From assembly GCA_024102635.1 (NCBI GenBank), contig JAGFJO010000080.1, positions 1 through 64,000 of the forward strand: DNA of 64,000 bases, in the 5' to 3' direction. Below, one piece after another: positions 44,805-51,291 of this stretch. The notes under the pieces were generated by a model. It saw only the letters and a list, made by a program, of their open reading frames with translations. It made no database searches and was not told the origin of the DNA. Made by a program: the position numbers and the translations under genes. This DNA is from Deltaproteobacteria bacterium. Lineage in GTDB: Bacteria; Bdellovibrionota_C; UBA2361; JAGFJO01. Position 1 is the stretch's first letter. Each line of letters begins with the position of its first letter.

Positions 44805-46103
44805 TTACCGGAACATTTTTCGGGCCGCCCTAATCGCATCGATCAACGCCTCAAAATCCGAGATGTCACTGTAAAGCCCGATACTGGCGCGAGCCGAAGA
44901 GGCGATCCCAAGATGCTTAAGCGCCGGCATGGCGCAGTGATGCCCAGCACGGATCTGAACGTTAAAGTTGTCCGCTATAGTTGAAAGGTCGTGGGCATGA
45001 ACGCCCTTAAGATTGAAGGAAATGATTGAAACCTGACAGCCGGATTCTGCGCCATGCCGGGTGGCAGGGCCGTAAAGTTCTACCCCTTCCTCCTTAGATA
45101 AAAGCTCCCAGGCCTTTACAAAAAGGCTATGCTCGTAGTCCGCTATCGCTTTCAAGCCGAAACCCTCAACAAAGTCCACTGCGCTTTCAAGCGCTATTGC
45201 CTCCGCGATTGGGGGAGTCCCCGCTTCCATTCTTTGAGGAAAATCAGCCCAAGCTGATCCTTCCACCGCAACCGAAGAGATCATATCGCCGCCCCCCTGA
45301 AACGGCTCCATTAGGTGGTGCACTTTGCTGTTCGCATATAGCACTCCTATACCCGTCGGACCGTAAAATTTGTGGCCCGAAAAGGCAAGAAAGTCAGCGC
45401 CGATTCTCGAGCAATCCAGCTCGCAGTGCTGCACTGATTGAGCGGCATCTACCAGTACCAGCGCGCCCGCTTTATGCGCAACGTCGACTATCTTGTCGAC
45501 CGGAAACAAAGTGCCGAACGAATTAGCAACGTGCGTCATAGCTACAAGCTTCGGCTTCAATTCCTCGACCTTTTTTTTATAATCATCAAGGTCAAATTCT
45601 GCCGAAGGAGAGATGTTGCAGAAGCTAAGATTTAAACCTTTGCGGCGGGCGAGCATCTGCCACGGCACAATATTACTGTGATGCTCGATAAGAGAGATGA
45701 GAATATTATCTCCTCTGCTAAAGTAGTTTTCCAGCGAGTGTGCTACCAGATTGATTGATTCCGTTGTTCCCTTAGTGAAGATTATCTCTCTCTCACTATC
45801 CGCTCCAAGGAACCGCGCCAGACGAAGCTTGCTGTTGTCATAGGCCTTCGTCGCGTTTGCGCTAAGGCTATAAGCGCCGCGATGAATGTTGGCATGTTCA
45901 TGAGATAAATAGGCCGTGATTCTATCGATCACCGCGGCCGGCTTTTGAGCACTAGCTGCGGTATCAAGATAGTGCAGCTGGGCCTTTTCGCCCTTAGACA
46001 AAATAGGGAAAAATTGCCGGGCTGTTAGTCCGGGCAACCGCTTTGACTCTTTTGATTCTATTGCTGCCATGCCCATAATTCGGTGCCGCTCAATATAAGG
46101 CAC
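44805..46103 (-). CDS. sufS: Cysteine desulfurase, SufS type
   Basis: A group II cysteine desulfurase, up to 432 residues (GTG 46103; ATG 46076 or 46070 may be the true start). LHYLDTAASAQKPAAVIDRI and the NIHRGAYSLS region begin the PLP fold. K in SGHKFYGPTGIGVLY is the Schiff-base lysine, and Cys in RAGHHCAMPALKHLG is the persulfide site in the short SufS-type loop. It would supply sulfur for Fe-S clusters, but no other suf genes are in the window. Confidence 0.94.
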   Translation of the reverse strand: MPYIERHRIMGMAAIESKESKRLPGLTARQFFPILSKGEKAQLHYLDTAASAQKPAAVIDRITAYLSHEHANIHRGAYSLSANATKAYDNSKLRLARFLGADSEREIIFTKGTTESINLVAHSLENYFSRGDNILISLIEHHSNIVPWQMLARRKGLNLSFCNISPSAEFDLDDYKKKVEELKPKLVAMTHVANSFGTLFPVDKIVDVAHKAGALVLVDAAQSVQHCELDCSRIGADFLAFSGHKFYGPTGIGVLYANSKVHHLMEPFQGGGDMISSVAVEGSAWADFPQRMEAGTPPIAEAIALESAVDFVEGFGLKAIADYEHSLFVKAWELLSKEEGVELYGPATRHGAESGCQVSIISFNLKGVHAHDLSTIADNFNVQIRAGHHCAMPALKHLGIASSARASIGLYSDISDFEALIDAIRAARKMFR

Positions 46104-46244
46104 AAGCTTACATTATCAAGTTTTCCGCCCTTTTGCGAGGCGGGGCCACCGAATATCGCATACGATAATTCGCTCAAGGTTTTCGTGCGCCTCTGTCGAT
46201 ATACCATTTAGGTAATAACTGCTCGTAAATTAGGTCTAGGCGAT

Positions 46245-47240
46245 ATGAATACTCCTCCGGCTGCGCACTCAAAACCCGGAATTATAGGATGGACCGCAGC
46301 AGCGTTCTCGGCCTGTTTGATAGTCTATCTTATCGGGGCGGTACTGCAGGTCGGCGAGTATTGGCGCAAAACAGTTTGCGCCGAGCGCGCCAAACTAGCT
46401 TTGGACGGCTCAAATATGGCGCTAGCTCGTTACTACACTGATCGAGCCCTTCGCGCTGAGGGGCTAGCTTGGCTATTTTCGCTAGGTAGCAATATTGATA
46501 CCAAATTGGGGAATTTGATTGCGCTTAACCTCGACCTTTTGGAGGAGAGTAACGGATACGATTTTCGCGCGGCCCTTAACAGAATCGAAATACTTCGGAC
46601 CTCCATCAGCGAAGTACAGGTTCTTGACCCCGACGAGCCACGCCTTGTCAAGACGGCTGATGATGCTAAACCGGTTTTGGAATCGTTGGTGTATCTGGAC
46701 AACAAACGGCGCACCAAACAGGCTGAGCGCGGGCGGCTGGAGGAACAGCGGAGAAAACTAGTTCAGGCTTACTCGATCATCGCTACTGAATTTGGCGAAT
46801 TCTTTTCTCTCACCCCGGAAAAAGCGGATCCGGAATCGGCTCTTCCTGTGTATGAGAAAGGCGTGCTGAAAGGACTTCCTCGCCTGCAAAACCTTGAGGA
46901 TGATCTTCCCACACTTACGGCACTTGCAAAGTCCTTGGAGATCGCGAGAGGCAAGGTTCAGCTCGAACCTGGAGCTAATGCCCATCTTCAATTTACCGAG
47001 AGAATGAAGTATTTCCGCAACGCTATGCGTCCCTTGAACTTGGGCAACTCCACCGTAACAAAAGCGATCATAGAGATTGACAGTTATCTAGCTGCCAATG
47101 AAAGCGAACTGAAAAGGTCCCGCTACGTACTAGACTCGAACCTTAGAGAGATCTTTTTTACCGCGCTAGCGGCGAGCCGCACACCATCACCAAGAGCCCT
47201 CGCTGAAATAGGCGATTCCCTGAGAACAGTTATTCTCTAG
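46245..47240 (+). CDS. Membrane-anchored helical protein of unknown function
   Basis: 331 residues: a short N-terminus, one membrane helix (TAAAFSACLIVYLIGAVLQV, about residues 17-36), then a long, mostly helical, probably periplasmic part with charged coiled-coil stretches (KRRTKQAERGRLEEQRRKL). I do not recognise it. It overlaps the stop of the convergent class I amidotransferase gene by 11 bases. Confidence 0.7.
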   Translation: MNTPPAAHSKPGIIGWTAAAFSACLIVYLIGAVLQVGEYWRKTVCAERAKLALDGSNMALARYYTDRALRAEGLAWLFSLGSNIDTKLGNLIALNLDLLEESNGYDFRAALNRIEILRTSISEVQVLDPDEPRLVKTADDAKPVLESLVYLDNKRRTKQAERGRLEEQRRKLVQAYSIIATEFGEFFSLTPEKADPESALPVYEKGVLKGLPRLQNLEDDLPTLTALAKSLEIARGKVQLEPGANAHLQFTERMKYFRNAMRPLNLGNSTVTKAIIEIDSYLAANESELKRSRYVLDSNLREIFFTALAASRTPSPRALAEIGDSLRTVIL

Positions 47241-47991
47241 TTGACAGTCGCTTTCGTTCGAAACCTCGCGCCTCTAAAACAAGTTGCTTAAAAACATTGA
47301 GCCACTCGCGAACCTGCTTGTCCCAGATACTCTCGGGGTGGCACTGAACACCAACGCAGTACCACTCCCCCTCTGCCTCGACTGCTTCTATCAAGCCGCC
47401 ATGCCTGGCTGAGGCGCGCAAACCGGGCGCCAATCTTTTGATGGCCTGGTGATGCCAGGAGTTGACCGCTATGGTCTCACGGCCCAGCTGCGCAGCTAGA
47501 CGTGAATCTTCGTCGATTGCGATCTCATGGGCCGCCTGAGACTCGGCATCGTAAGCCAGCTTGCTTGAATGCCCTTTGATTGAGCACTGAGTCTCCAAAT
47601 CTTGGAATAATGTTCCGCCCAGTACTACGTTAATTATCTGCATACCGCGGCAGATTCCTAAAACCGGCTTTTGCTCTTCCTTTGCTGACAGAATCAGGTA
47701 CTTCTCAATCTCGTCCCTGCTTTCGCATACCGGTCCTATCTTTTCGTGCGGATTCTCCCCATATAACTGAGGCGAAACATCCTCTCCCCCGGTAATGAGA
47801 AGGCCGCTACACCTGCTGTAAATCGCAGCTACCGTTTCCAGAGATTGTGTAACTGGGATCAATATAGGCACTCCACCGGCTGCGATAATTGATTCAATGT
47901 ACTCCCGCGCTACTCCAATTTTGAGTTCATCGTCGGCTGTTCTGTAGCAACAGGTGGAAATGCCTATCGAAGGAGGTTCATTCAGTTGCAT
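47230..47991 (-). CDS. Class I glutamine amidotransferase-like hydrolase (peptidase C26, PuuD-like)
   Basis: 253 residues. GICRGMQIINVVLGGTLFQDL carries the nucleophilic Cys; VGVQCHPESIWD supplies the catalytic His and Glu; LLITGGEDVSPQLYGE is the oxyanion segment. The family hydrolyses gamma-glutamyl amides such as gamma-glutamyl-GABA in putrescine breakdown, but no other puu genes are nearby, so the substrate is uncertain. The 238 bases upstream (47992-48229) hold nothing I can name. Confidence 0.9.
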   Translation of the reverse strand: MQLNEPPSIGISTCCYRTADDELKIGVAREYIESIIAAGGVPILIPVTQSLETVAAIYSRCSGLLITGGEDVSPQLYGENPHEKIGPVCESRDEIEKYLILSAKEEQKPVLGICRGMQIINVVLGGTLFQDLETQCSIKGHSSKLAYDAESQAAHEIAIDEDSRLAAQLGRETIAVNSWHHQAIKRLAPGLRASARHGGLIEAVEAEGEWYCVGVQCHPESIWDKQVREWLNVFKQLVLEARGFERKRLSTRE

Positions 47992-48229
47992 AAAGGTATA
48001 GTCACTGCCAATGACACTAGTCTGCTATGGCCGCCGCTAATATCTTCTGGCGTGCTGCATGATGCAAGCTGCCATCTACTCCGGTCAGGTGTGTTTGAGC
48101 TTTAAAAAATCGGGGTGCACAAAATTTTGCTCACCAAACCCCCATTGACATAGCAGAGCTGAAAAACAGCCCAAATTAAGAAATGGCGTAAATGGCTGAT
48201 TTCATAAATTTTTTGGGCTTATTTTCATG

Positions 48230-48257
48230 TTGCTTTCGAGCAATCGTGTGCTATACT
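48230..48257 (+). promoter_or_regulatory. Sigma-70 promoter of a candidate RNA gene
   Basis: TTGCTT (48230-48235), a 16-base spacer and TATACT (48252-48257) predict a start near 48264. No credible coding frame follows for more than 600 bases. Confidence 0.6.
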
Positions 48258-48263
48258 TAAAAA

Positions 48264-48753
48264 CTCCTTGGCCTGGTAACAACCACCGACGTGGTTGTGT
48301 GTTTGTTTGGGCCGGTATTTCGAAAAAATTGAAACAGGATAGCTGAAGCAGTATAGCTAAAGCGGGCCAGAGTGCCGACGGCAGTTTGAGCTGGACCCAT
48401 TTATTGGAACTAGCGGTTACAATAATTGTGTCCAGGAATGAGATTTTCGCCCCGAACCGCTTTTTGCAGTATTTCTCGGAGGCGGAATTAGAGATCGGTT
48501 ACGCAGTACCTGCTTTACTGAACTGTCATGTGCTTCGCGCGGTAAGGTGGCTCGTAAGAGCCGGCTTCCTCTAAGGGGCGATCCCCTTGTGAGTTAATGG
48601 TGCCTCATGTTTGTGATAGCTGACCTTTTGTTGCTTGCTTTGCATCAGATATCAGCAATAACACGACAACGGCCTCCGGTAATTCGCGCTTAATCATCAC
48701 ACTTACTGTTTGTAATTGACGGCGGAGATTGAAACTCTCTGGCCGTTTTTTTT
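48264..48753 (+). ncRNA. Candidate structured non-coding RNA, about 490 nt
   Basis: The unit runs from the promoter above to an intrinsic terminator. Hairpins in order: ACAACCAC/GTGGTTGT with loop CGAC (48279-48298); GGGCCAG/CTGGaCCC (48364-48398) enclosing TGCC/GGCA; AGCGGTT (48412-48418)/AACCGCT (48455-48461); GGCTC/GAGCC with GNRA loop GTAA (48549-48562); AAGGGG/CCCCTT with loop CGAT (48573-48588). The terminator is ACGGC.GGAGA/TCTCT.GCCGT (48719-48746) with eight T. A near direct repeat ATAGCTGAAGC/ATAGCTAAAGC lies near 48339-48363. It does not match tmRNA, RNase P, SRP or 6S RNA features I know. A 62-codon TTG-start frame inside (48386-48574) has no support. Confidence 0.5.
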
Positions 48754-48765
48754 GCTTTGCGGGCT

Positions 48766-48791
48766 GGCTCTCAGACCGACGGGCCGTTTTT
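48766..48791 (+). terminator. Possible second terminator after the RNA unit
   Basis: A weak stem GGCTC/GGGCC is followed by GTTTTT. The end sequence GGCCGTTTTTGCTTG is a near repeat of the first terminator's tail at 48741-48757. Confidence 0.35.
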
Positions 48792-48908
48792 GCTTGTGGG
48801 AAGTAGGTAAGGTTTTCGTCTGTACCAGCCGGGCGCAATTGCACGGCGAGTTAGCTCATGTAGTTATTGTTATTTATATCGATTTTTACTTTAAAAAGGA
48901 TGTGTGTC

Positions 48909-49196
48909 ATGAAATTCTGGTCAAACTCTGATATCCCCTCCGTAGGTCCCTATGTGCCGGAGAAGAGGCTTTTGGCTGCTGTATTGCAGCGCGCCATCAG
49001 CGATCTTATCGGTGGAGAAGGCGAACTTAGAGAAGGTGCTCGCTCTTGGCTGATGGATGATGAGCCGACTGACGCTCCTCTTACGTTTCGCTTCATTTGT
49101 GAAGCTTTGGATCTTGATTGTATGAGCCTTAGGAAGGCTATAACCATCCAAGCTCAGAGCCAGTCCGACGTTGCTGTGGGCGAAGCAGCATACTAG
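48909..49196 (+). CDS. Small conserved-looking protein, 95 residues
   Basis: ATG 48909 with AAAAAGGA about 9 bases before is preferred over the longer open frame from 48867. The pattern PEKRLLAAVLQRAISDLIGG ... EGARSWLMDDE ... PLTFRFICEALDLDCMSLRKAI matches, from memory, a widespread unnamed small family in phages and delta-proteobacteria ('LL.AVL.dAi......a..W..sdd...pFsF..vCeaLgld...lr'). The second half looks helix-turn-helix-like, so a regulatory or DNA-binding role is possible. It is followed by a tandem repeat and a strong terminator. Confidence 0.75.
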   Translation: MKFWSNSDIPSVGPYVPEKRLLAAVLQRAISDLIGGEGELREGARSWLMDDEPTDAPLTFRFICEALDLDCMSLRKAITIQAQSQSDVAVGEAAY

Positions 49197-49205
49197 TCGA
49201 ACAGC

Positions 49206-49270
49206 ACACAGGGTACTGGCACACAGGGTCACCTGGCACACAGGGGCACCTGGCACACAGGGGCACCTGC
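49206..49270. repeat. Four-unit tandem repeat of about 17 bp
   Basis: Units ACACAGGGTACTGGC, ACACAGGGTCACCTGGC, ACACAGGGGCACCTGGC and ACACAGGGGCACCTGC. The unit contains GGCACCTGGC-like short inverted parts. It lies in the 3' UTR of the 95-residue gene. Confidence 0.85.
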
Positions 49271-49289
49271 TTAAGCGGGGTGCCCCGCC

Positions 49290-49316
49290 CGTGCGACTCT
49301 CCCCCGCACGCTTTTT
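49290..49316 (+). terminator. Intrinsic terminator after the tandem repeat
   Basis: Stem CGTGCG (49290-49295)/CGCACG (49305-49310), then CTTTTTCTTT. It is preceded by another GCGGGG/CCCCGC hairpin (49275-49288). Confidence 0.75.
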
Positions 49317-49320
49317 CTTT

Positions 49321-49659
49321 CCTTCCGCATCCTCGCATCCCCGTTGCCTGTCACCGGCACCGCACTGGGATATCCGGTAACGTTTCAAGTTCTTCATCTA
49401 TGAACATCGATAGAAGCGAGTGCTAGGAAGCTAAGATTTCGAAAAAGCATAGTCTCTACTAGAGCAACCATTCCATAAAAAATCTGCGCAATATCGCCGC
49501 ATTTTAAGGCAATCTATTATCTCTTTAATCTAAGTTTTCAGTTTCATGACAGAGATCAGAGGATGATAGTTCTTATGGCATCGACGATCTTGGTCGCAGA
49601 AATTCCCTTCCCCGCTACACATCTAACTGTTATATAATAGTTATAGTTGGCGATTCATT
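49321..49659. other. Intergenic region with near-palindrome over a -10 element
   Basis: 339 AT-rich bases without a gene. AACTGTTATATAATAGTT (49625-49642) matches its own reverse complement at 16 of 18 positions and contains TATAAT (49633-49638). It lies about 20 bases before the ATG at 49660 and may be promoter plus operator. Nothing else stands out. Confidence 0.5.
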
Positions 49660-49950
49660 ATGGGTGATCACGGTAGCAACCAGGGCGGTAAAGGCAACCA
49701 ACCGGAACGGTGGGAAAAGTTGCTGATGGCGCTAGATGAGAAGTTGCAGCTTGGTCTGCTTGATCGGTTGCGCCGGGTTACACGCTACGAATTTACCAAG
49801 GAGTCCGCGGGTGAGGCTTTAATAATAGAGACTGCATCCGCGGAAGACGAAGAGTACCTCTCCAAAGAGCCTTTCTTTCATCAACTCGAACTTCTTGCTC
49901 AAGACGCCATCGGCGTTGAACGGGTGCAGATCAATCGCCGAGAAGAATAG
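49660..49950 (+). CDS. Small protein resembling DnaA domain I
   Basis: 96 residues with a glycine-rich start. WEKLLMALDEKLQLGLLDRLRRV, a beta pair (EALIIETASAEDEEYLS) and HQLELLAQDAIGVERVQIN follow the size and alternation of the KH-like DnaA N-terminal domain ('W..iL..L........f..w......... l.l.......fl......l...l'). This is pattern-level similarity only. There is no ATPase domain, so it could be an interaction module. No Shine-Dalgarno sequence; the leader would be very short. Confidence 0.55.
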   Translation: MGDHGSNQGGKGNQPERWEKLLMALDEKLQLGLLDRLRRVTRYEFTKESAGEALIIETASAEDEEYLSKEPFFHQLELLAQDAIGVERVQINRREE

Positions 49951-49983
49951 ATACTTTTAAGCTACTCGCTTTCAAGACCTGGA

Positions 49984-50796
49984 TTATCGCGCTGGGGAGC
50001 TTTCAGCAGATTGCCGGGCCACAAGGTGCTTGATGCCTGCAAAGCCTGGATCGGGCATCTTAACCCGAGCCATCCTGCTTCCAACCTGAGCCAGAGCGTT
50101 CGCGTTAGAAAAGCTGAATAGTTGAAATTTAATCTTCGGCCAGCGCGATCTAAAAATGCTCACGGAATCAGCGTATGCCAGATCAAAGGCTCTGAATCCA
50201 TACGTCTCCACCAGCTGCGGTAGAACAGCTAAGCGATGCGGCGTCTTATCCATACGGCTCGGGAGAGCCACTGCGCCAAACTCATCAATAATCGACAGCA
50301 CATGATCGAAGGGGTGTGAAACGAGATATTTGCGGTTCCCCATGGCTGCAGACGGGACTCCGAGTGCTCGCAGAAAGTCATGAATAGCTTGTGCATTGCT
50401 GCTCTCAGGAAATAAGCAGGAAAGTATTACATCGTCGCAATTTTTCAGAGTTACTCTGAGGTCCACTCCGGGAATGACGATAAGAGAGGTATTTCTGGCT
50501 GCATCGATGACCCTATCGATGTAGGCGGCGCTGTAAAAGTCCGTTACAGCTATGACATCCAACCCCTTAACCTTGGCCAGCCGGACTAGAGCCGGAGCGG
50601 TATCTATCCCCTCGATTCCCAAATACCCGAGCGAGGCGGGGCTATGGATTCTAAGATCCATTAAGTAACTTTTCTTTTTAGCCCTCGACTTTTCGATCGA
50701 GGCGGAGAGATTTTTAGGCTGCTCTGCGGCTACATTCTCACTTGAACTTTGTTCTCTCTCTATGCTGGCAGCTAAGGTGGTCTTCTTGTCTTCCAT
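49984..50796 (-). CDS. PHP-superfamily protein with metal ligands lost
   Basis: About 270 residues from ATG 50796 (AAAGGA about 10 bases before it). A disordered N-terminus (about 38 residues) is followed by a PHP fold: LMDLRIHSPASLGY, LAKVKGLDVIAVTDFYSAAYID, VIPGVDLRV, LPSRMDK and FSNANALAQVGS. Active PHP enzymes have DLHxH, TDH, GxE, HPxR and SDAH at these places, so nearly every ligand is replaced (R, F, D, L, N/N). Likely a pseudo-enzyme with a binding or regulatory role. It follows the 155-residue coiled-coil gene after only 27 bases. Confidence 0.75.
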   Translation of the reverse strand: MEDKKTTLAASIEREQSSSENVAAEQPKNLSASIEKSRAKKKSYLMDLRIHSPASLGYLGIEGIDTAPALVRLAKVKGLDVIAVTDFYSAAYIDRVIDAARNTSLIVIPGVDLRVTLKNCDDVILSCLFPESSNAQAIHDFLRALGVPSAAMGNRKYLVSHPFDHVLSIIDEFGAVALPSRMDKTPHRLAVLPQLVETYGFRAFDLAYADSVSIFRSRWPKIKFQLFSFSNANALAQVGSRMARVKMPDPGFAGIKHLVARQSAESSPAR

Positions 50797-50823
50797 ATTG
50801 ACGTTTCCTTTAAATTGCAAGCC

Positions 50824-51291
50824 TTAGCTTCCCTCTTCAGACGTGATTATTTCTGTGGCCGAAGGAAGTGAACTGGCTGGGGGAGGCTGTTTGGGCGCCT
50901 TGACCTTTTCTCCTCCAGACAGCGCCATGAGGTCCCGAAGTAAGGTTTTTAGTGAGCCGATCTGAACATCGATTCGCTCGAGGTCGCTGCCGGTAGGCAT
51001 CTGCTGAAACAGATTAAGCACCCTGTCCAGCTTAACTCCCATATTGGTAACGCGGGTGGTGACGAGATCGAGCTTTCCCTCCAGCACTTTCACTTCTGAG
51101 GTCGTAGCTACGCCCATCATGCGGGCTATGGCATATGCGCTTACATCAGATGCAGCGCGGGGAGTTTCTGAAGCTTCGGCGGCTGCGCTTTTTTCACTGG
51201 AATACTCCGGCGAGCCATTTTTTGCGGCCCCCGTGGCATTAGCGGCGTCGGATGTTGTAGAAGTATCAGTTCCGAGGTCTTTCTCCTGCAT
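50824..51291 (-). CDS. Coiled-coil protein of unknown function, 155 residues
   Basis: A Ser/Thr/Ala-rich, low-complexity N-terminus (about 45 residues) is followed by AIARMMGVATTSEVKVLEGKLDLVTTRVTNMGVKLDRVL, a heptad-patterned helix, and LERIDVQIGSLKTLLRDLMA, then a proline-rich tail. No signal peptide or span. Not recognised. It sits directly upstream of the pseudo-PHP gene; both have similar disordered, charged N-termini and may act together. Confidence 0.65.
   Translation of the reverse strand: MQEKDLGTDTSTTSDAANATGAAKNGSPEYSSEKSAAAEASETPRAASDVSAYAIARMMGVATTSEVKVLEGKLDLVTTRVTNMGVKLDRVLNLFQQMPTGSDLERIDVQIGSLKTLLRDLMALSGGEKVKAPKQPPPASSLPSATEIITSEEGS

Follow-up and report, generated by a model that had tools for sequence, protein, structure and literature searches.

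Within the 64,000-nucleotide stretch of a Deltaproteobacteria bacterium genome analysed here (the window), the region at 48230-48753 is fairly probably the 5' leader, long and structured, that precedes the gene for a 95-aa protein, which starts at 48909, and not the separate RNA gene that the original prediction had proposed. Transcription would start at about 48264, from a promoter at 48230-48257, and the folded leader, with a hairpin at its 5' end and a branched domain, would control the expression of the 95-aa gene in cis. The hairpin and T8 at 48718-48753 probably serve as an attenuator in this genome; some transcripts would end at 48753, about 490 nt long, and the others would continue into the gene. 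The signal for such control is perhaps the 95-aa protein itself.

Sequence comparison supports the position of the promoter, the tie of the region to the gene and, for the relatives, selection acting on structure. The promoter lies far upstream with no intervening gene, and linkage to the same gene is found across species. Short of experiment, nothing points to a cis element better than such linkage (PMC2965389), and the cis reading is favoured because synteny with the flanking gene is present here. Of the original prediction, the idea that the hairpins and signals make one functional RNA is supported, indirectly, by the conserved promoter position, the leader and the consensus structure of the relatives, but its independence as a gene is not favoured, given the synteny with the 95-aa gene, the lack of a clear second promoter and the inconstancy of the terminators.

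The 95-aa gene and its locus

The gene that follows the leader occupies 48909-49196 on the forward strand (protein-coding 48909-49193). Its host genome amounts to 3.9 Mb in 154 contigs, and the nearest relatives compared belong to the same order only; the sets comprised 29 genomes of the order, 46 of the class and 58 for the DNA-level search. Of the 29 order-level genomes, 23 have one close orthologue of the protein each, with 53-78% identity, and of the 46 in the class, 35 give a match at E<=1e-20. Distant paralogues also exist, three of them in the same genome, with a core common to them. Among named database records, its closest relatives come mostly from metagenome bins that carry the label Deltaproteobacteria or Proteobacteria. 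Pfam, NCBIfam and PHROG gave no match to the protein, and the PDB no significant sequence match; its model consists of four helices (pLDDT 79), and a fold search with that model returned nothing significant, only weak matches of the sigma-region-4 or HTH-like kind. The gene had been described as phage-like, a label that finds no backing in PHROG or, for a paralogue of the protein, in 50,697 phage records.

A marker of synteny at this locus is the downstream neighbour, a gene for a 96-aa protein at 49660-49950 on the forward strand, which was matched by tblastn (43-55% identity) in 19 relatives of the order, at 410-1119 nt downstream of the start of the 95-aa gene. A relative of the 331-aa protein encoded at 46245-47240 precedes the 95-aa locus in several members of the order. 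In several relatives it adjoins the leader directly, unlike in this genome, where a Peptidase_C26 gene (PF07722, glutamine amidotransferase-like; 47230-47991, reverse strand) separates the leader from the 331-aa gene. Just 3' of the 95-aa gene, the 17-bp unit GCACACAGGGGCACCTG is repeated in four tandem copies (49204-49269).

Nearly all orthologues of the 95-aa gene are preceded by several hundred bases without a convincing long frame. The leaders of the relatives range from about 90 to 750 nt, some being only about 90-150 nt, and their sequence is not conserved between families; a motif search over 23 of them gave nothing above shuffles except a weak T-rich word. At the DNA level, 48230-48753 is single-copy and has no relative among the 58 genomes, where chance matches only were obtained.

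Promoters at the orthologous loci

The predicted promoter, TTGCTT-16-TATACT, lies on the forward strand at 48230-48257, with the -35 element at 48230-48235, the -10 element at 48252-48257 and a spacer of 16 nt. The A/T tract TTATTTTC stands directly 5' of it on the same strand, and the palindrome TTGCTTTCGAGCAA (48230-48243) spans the -35 element. The elements are present as first described, but the promoter is weak, with 8 of 12 consensus bases and a score under the consensus-scan threshold. It is nevertheless credible, because it ties for the top match in its own intergenic region: against a profile built from 31 relatives, with this genome left out, it reaches the joint-best score within 47992-48908. 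The full profile, which includes the start region, gives it a lower score, since the GC-rich start seen in the relatives is missing from this genome. Such weakness by consensus, together with the missing GC-rich start, counts against the leader reading.

In the relatives, throughout both order and class, candidate promoters are found 120-790 nt upstream of the orthologous ATG in every orthologue region, at positions that were picked from scored lists, partly by eye. Their pattern consists of an A/T tract, TTGACt-17/18-TATtcT and a CTC-containing start. Between the terminator and the 95-aa gene (48754-48908), neither profile nor consensus scoring gave a clear promoter. Assignment of the pattern to a class of stable-RNA promoters was rejected, the promoters of this genome's own 16S rRNA, tmRNA, RNase P and tRNA lacking the full signature of the relatives.

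At loci L023, L025, L035, L037, L039 and L041, which represent several families, a palindromic CGAATN5TTCGG-type box is placed within the leader promoter or immediately behind it, and is nearly absent elsewhere in the same loci. It looks like a repressor operator. The palindrome TTGCTTTCGAGCAA over the -35 element differs from it.

Folding of the region and selection on structure

The leader of this genome (48264-48908, forward strand; about 645 nt from the likely transcription start to the start codon) belongs to the longest non-coding stretch of the window and folds with a z of -3.4 to -4.4. For 48264-48752 the minimum free energy (MFE) is -168.9 kcal/mol (z -3.67), which none of 100 dinucleotide shuffles equalled in the first fold test; a repeat test gave z -3.15 to -3.41, and -3.20 with the terminator removed. 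Shuffle controls comprised 40 replicates. Over twenty-five random windows of 489 nt the mean z is -0.27 (sd 1.5). Equally low folding, at z -3 to -4.8, is seen in several further intergenic stretches of the window, so that energy alone does not single out 48264-48752.

The predicted hairpins are present, including the three closed by the tetraloops CGAC, GTAA and CGAT. The first belongs to the 5'-terminal hairpin of the centroid fold, ACAACCAC-CGAC-GTGGTTGT, within 48269-48314 of the forward strand (CGAC-loop hairpin at 48279-48298), where a clamp of the GGCCTGG/GGGCCGG type encloses it and the U-rich GTGTTTGTTTG comes next. The other two, GGCTC-GTAA-GAGCC (48549-48562) and AAGGGG-CGAT-CCCCTT (48573-48588), both on the forward strand, occur in the MFE and the centroid folds alike. 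Inside the leader, a 14-bp unit, TGAAGCAGGATAGC, is repeated in 2.4 tandem copies (48330-48363). The view that the region holds no credible protein also stands: the 62-aa frame at 48386-48574 matches nothing in Pfam or PHROG, and no homologous frame occurs at the orthologous loci of the relatives.

The nearest relatives share only the order and give no DNA-level match to this copy; the evidence for selection comes from the orthologous leaders. These have a mean z of -2.8, as compared with -1.9 for their reverse complements and -0.6 for the DNA 5' of their promoters; the leader mean is not specific on its own, because the stretches downstream, terminators included, average -2.7. More telling are three subclades of relatives within one family, where the consensus structure reaches z -6.6, -4.0 and -4.2 against column shuffles, and the adjacent coding gene in the same subclades -0.35, 0.17 and 0.12. 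On the antisense strand each alignment gives a weaker value (-4.2, -1.9 and -2.9), and the upstream controls give -0.7, +0.9 and -2.8. For the intergenic region downstream of the gene the values are -5.0, -2.3 and -12.9, as would be expected of a place with conserved terminators. Lying between the genes for the 95-aa and 96-aa proteins (49197-49659, with counterparts in relatives), that region is likewise long and structured, the value of -12.9 being reached in one subclade.

Compensatory changes occur among the predicted pairs, with three to four sequences per subclade, and are only suggestive of structure. In an alignment of all 12 leaders of the family (f11) no consensus structure was recovered; structure is therefore kept over short evolutionary distances only, or else the alignment fails. 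Hairpins are predicted in the first 60 nt of most order-level relatives, with stem sequences that differ. A pairing of CGGUUG with CAAUCG, just 5' of the start codon, is predicted for one subclade; sequestration of the ribosome-binding site was rejected as a general mechanism, since the arrangement is varied and inconsistent among leaders. The want of a motif shared across families and the null result of the 12-leader alignment count against the leader reading.

The same two results, and the equally low folding of other intergenic regions of the window, agree with a plainer explanation, by which the stretch is merely a long 5' untranslated or intergenic region of no specific function, its hairpins being incidental or only protecting the mRNA. 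This explanation is decidedly unlikely: it does not account for a consensus structure that in three subclades goes far beyond column shuffles while the coding control stays at about zero, nor for the upstream controls given above, nor for the long distance between promoter and gene that is kept across the order.

The terminator inside the leader

The eight-T terminator of the original prediction is borne out, as the only hairpin in the window with eight T after it. It lies on the forward strand at 48718-48753, 156 nt before the start codon, and consists of an 11-bp stem with one bulge (48718-48747; about -13.0 kcal/mol) and T8 (48746-48753). Terminator-like sites as such are not in excess, with five found in 46000-51000 and 5.2 in shuffles. 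Strong internal terminators also occur, at other positions, in the leaders of L024, L026, L029 and L038, and in L024, L026 and L029 an equivalent terminator stands 230-265 nt past the transcription start; most relatives' leaders have no strong internal terminator. A terminator conserved across the family, as an attenuator would be expected to show, is thus not seen, which lowers the standing of the attenuator and not that of the leader. Attenuation is a reasonable inference for this genome and is not conserved across the family. The inconstancy of the internal terminators, along with the structured character of the downstream intergenic region and of other intergenic stretches in the window, counts against the leader reading.

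A rival proposal is that the region is an independent sRNA gene that acts in trans, about 490 nt long and with a promoter and a terminator to itself, in which case the 95-aa gene would have a promoter in 48754-48908 that escaped detection. The strong T8 terminator, its equivalents 230-265 nt past the start in three relatives and the stable fold are what such a gene would have, and adjacency to one gene is compatible with action in trans, position beside a gene being no bar to it (PMC2965389). The proposal is rather unlikely even so, as most relatives have no strong internal terminator, 48754-48908 holds no good match to the relatives' promoter profile, the sequence is single-copy and absent from the relatives away from the 95-aa gene, and some of their leaders measure only about 90-150 nt. 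Attenuators and independent RNAs are inseparable by computation alone (Naville and Gautheret, PMC2965389).

Known RNA families

The Rfam search suggested with the original prediction gave no family at gathering score, and a permissive scan stayed at chance level, with E above 2. None of the Rfam 15 covariance models, riboswitches included, matches at 48230-48753, in agreement with the first impression that the region could not be matched to tmRNA, RNase P RNA, SRP RNA, 6S RNA or a known riboswitch; a permissive Rfam scan of 19 orthologous loci was equally without a match. The tmRNA (RF00023) of this genome is located elsewhere, at 24615-25006 of contig C21 (genome G000), and so is its RNase P RNA (RF00010), at 3620-4028 of contig C30; neither model matches at the locus. 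The 6S RNA model (RF00013) does not match either, and the length of the region and the absence of an end-to-end rod are unsuitable for that RNA.

The Rfam model detected no 6S RNA in 28 genomes of the order, and it misses many control genomes too; a divergent 6S RNA and an absent one are equally likely for the order. An unrecognised 6S RNA somewhere in these genomes would leave room for the region to be a divergent copy of a housekeeping RNA (6S, tmRNA, RNase P or SRP) or of a known riboswitch. Such an identity is highly improbable, as neither the window nor the 19 orthologous loci gave an Rfam match with E relaxed to 2-5, the tmRNA and RNase P genes lie elsewhere and length and the missing rod are unlike 6S.

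Two further candidates were set aside, a CsrB-type RNA on a look at the hairpin loops, none of which carries GGA, and a replication origin on the lack of a DnaA-box cluster and of a clear skew turn.

Resemblance to known systems

The mRNAs of the cspA type combine an A/T-rich tract 5' of the promoter with a long structured 5' UTR and a short conserved protein. The leader at 48264-48908 is similar to them in being long and structured, in its A/T-rich upstream tract and in preceding a gene for a short conserved protein, but it has no cold-box or sequence match, the 95-aa protein is not a cold-shock protein and leader length varies widely.

A parallel may also be drawn with the leaders of rimP and rpsL, which are listed as transcription attenuators by Naville and Gautheret 2010 (PMC2965389). 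In common with these, the leader is structured, fast-evolving, non-coding and syntenic with one conserved gene, and in this genome it has an intrinsic terminator before the start codon; unlike them, the terminator is present in some relatives only and the gene is uncharacterised. Some sRNAs arise from 5' UTRs when transcription stops prematurely (Adams et al. 2021, PMC7815308), and the terminated leader RNA could in the same manner come off the front of the mRNA, so that a second role in trans is possible; compared with such RNAs, a stable RNA and targets in trans are hypothetical here.

Implications

The region probably performs gene control of an ordinary kind, yet it belongs to no catalogued RNA family. 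A wider reading, somewhat unlikely and offered tentatively, is that of a class-wide cis-regulatory RNA, in which the leader of one small protein keeps its promoter and its structured character and is rebuilt in each family; the 95-aa protein would then perhaps bind nucleic acid and regulate itself. Since sequence and length would be rebuilt per family, RNA catalogues based on homology would be blind to such a leader. According to Naville and Gautheret (PMC2965389), the evolution of attenuators outpaces searches by conservation, and as fast-evolving attenuators have already been described there, the principle itself is not new. If the region is indeed a regulatory leader, it would be conserved in its place and its structuredness and not in its sequence, and searches with covariance models would miss leaders of this sort. 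The finding also draws attention to a small protein, conserved but uncharacterised, in a whole class of uncultured bacteria, in which the 95-aa family is a core protein with several distant paralogues per genome.
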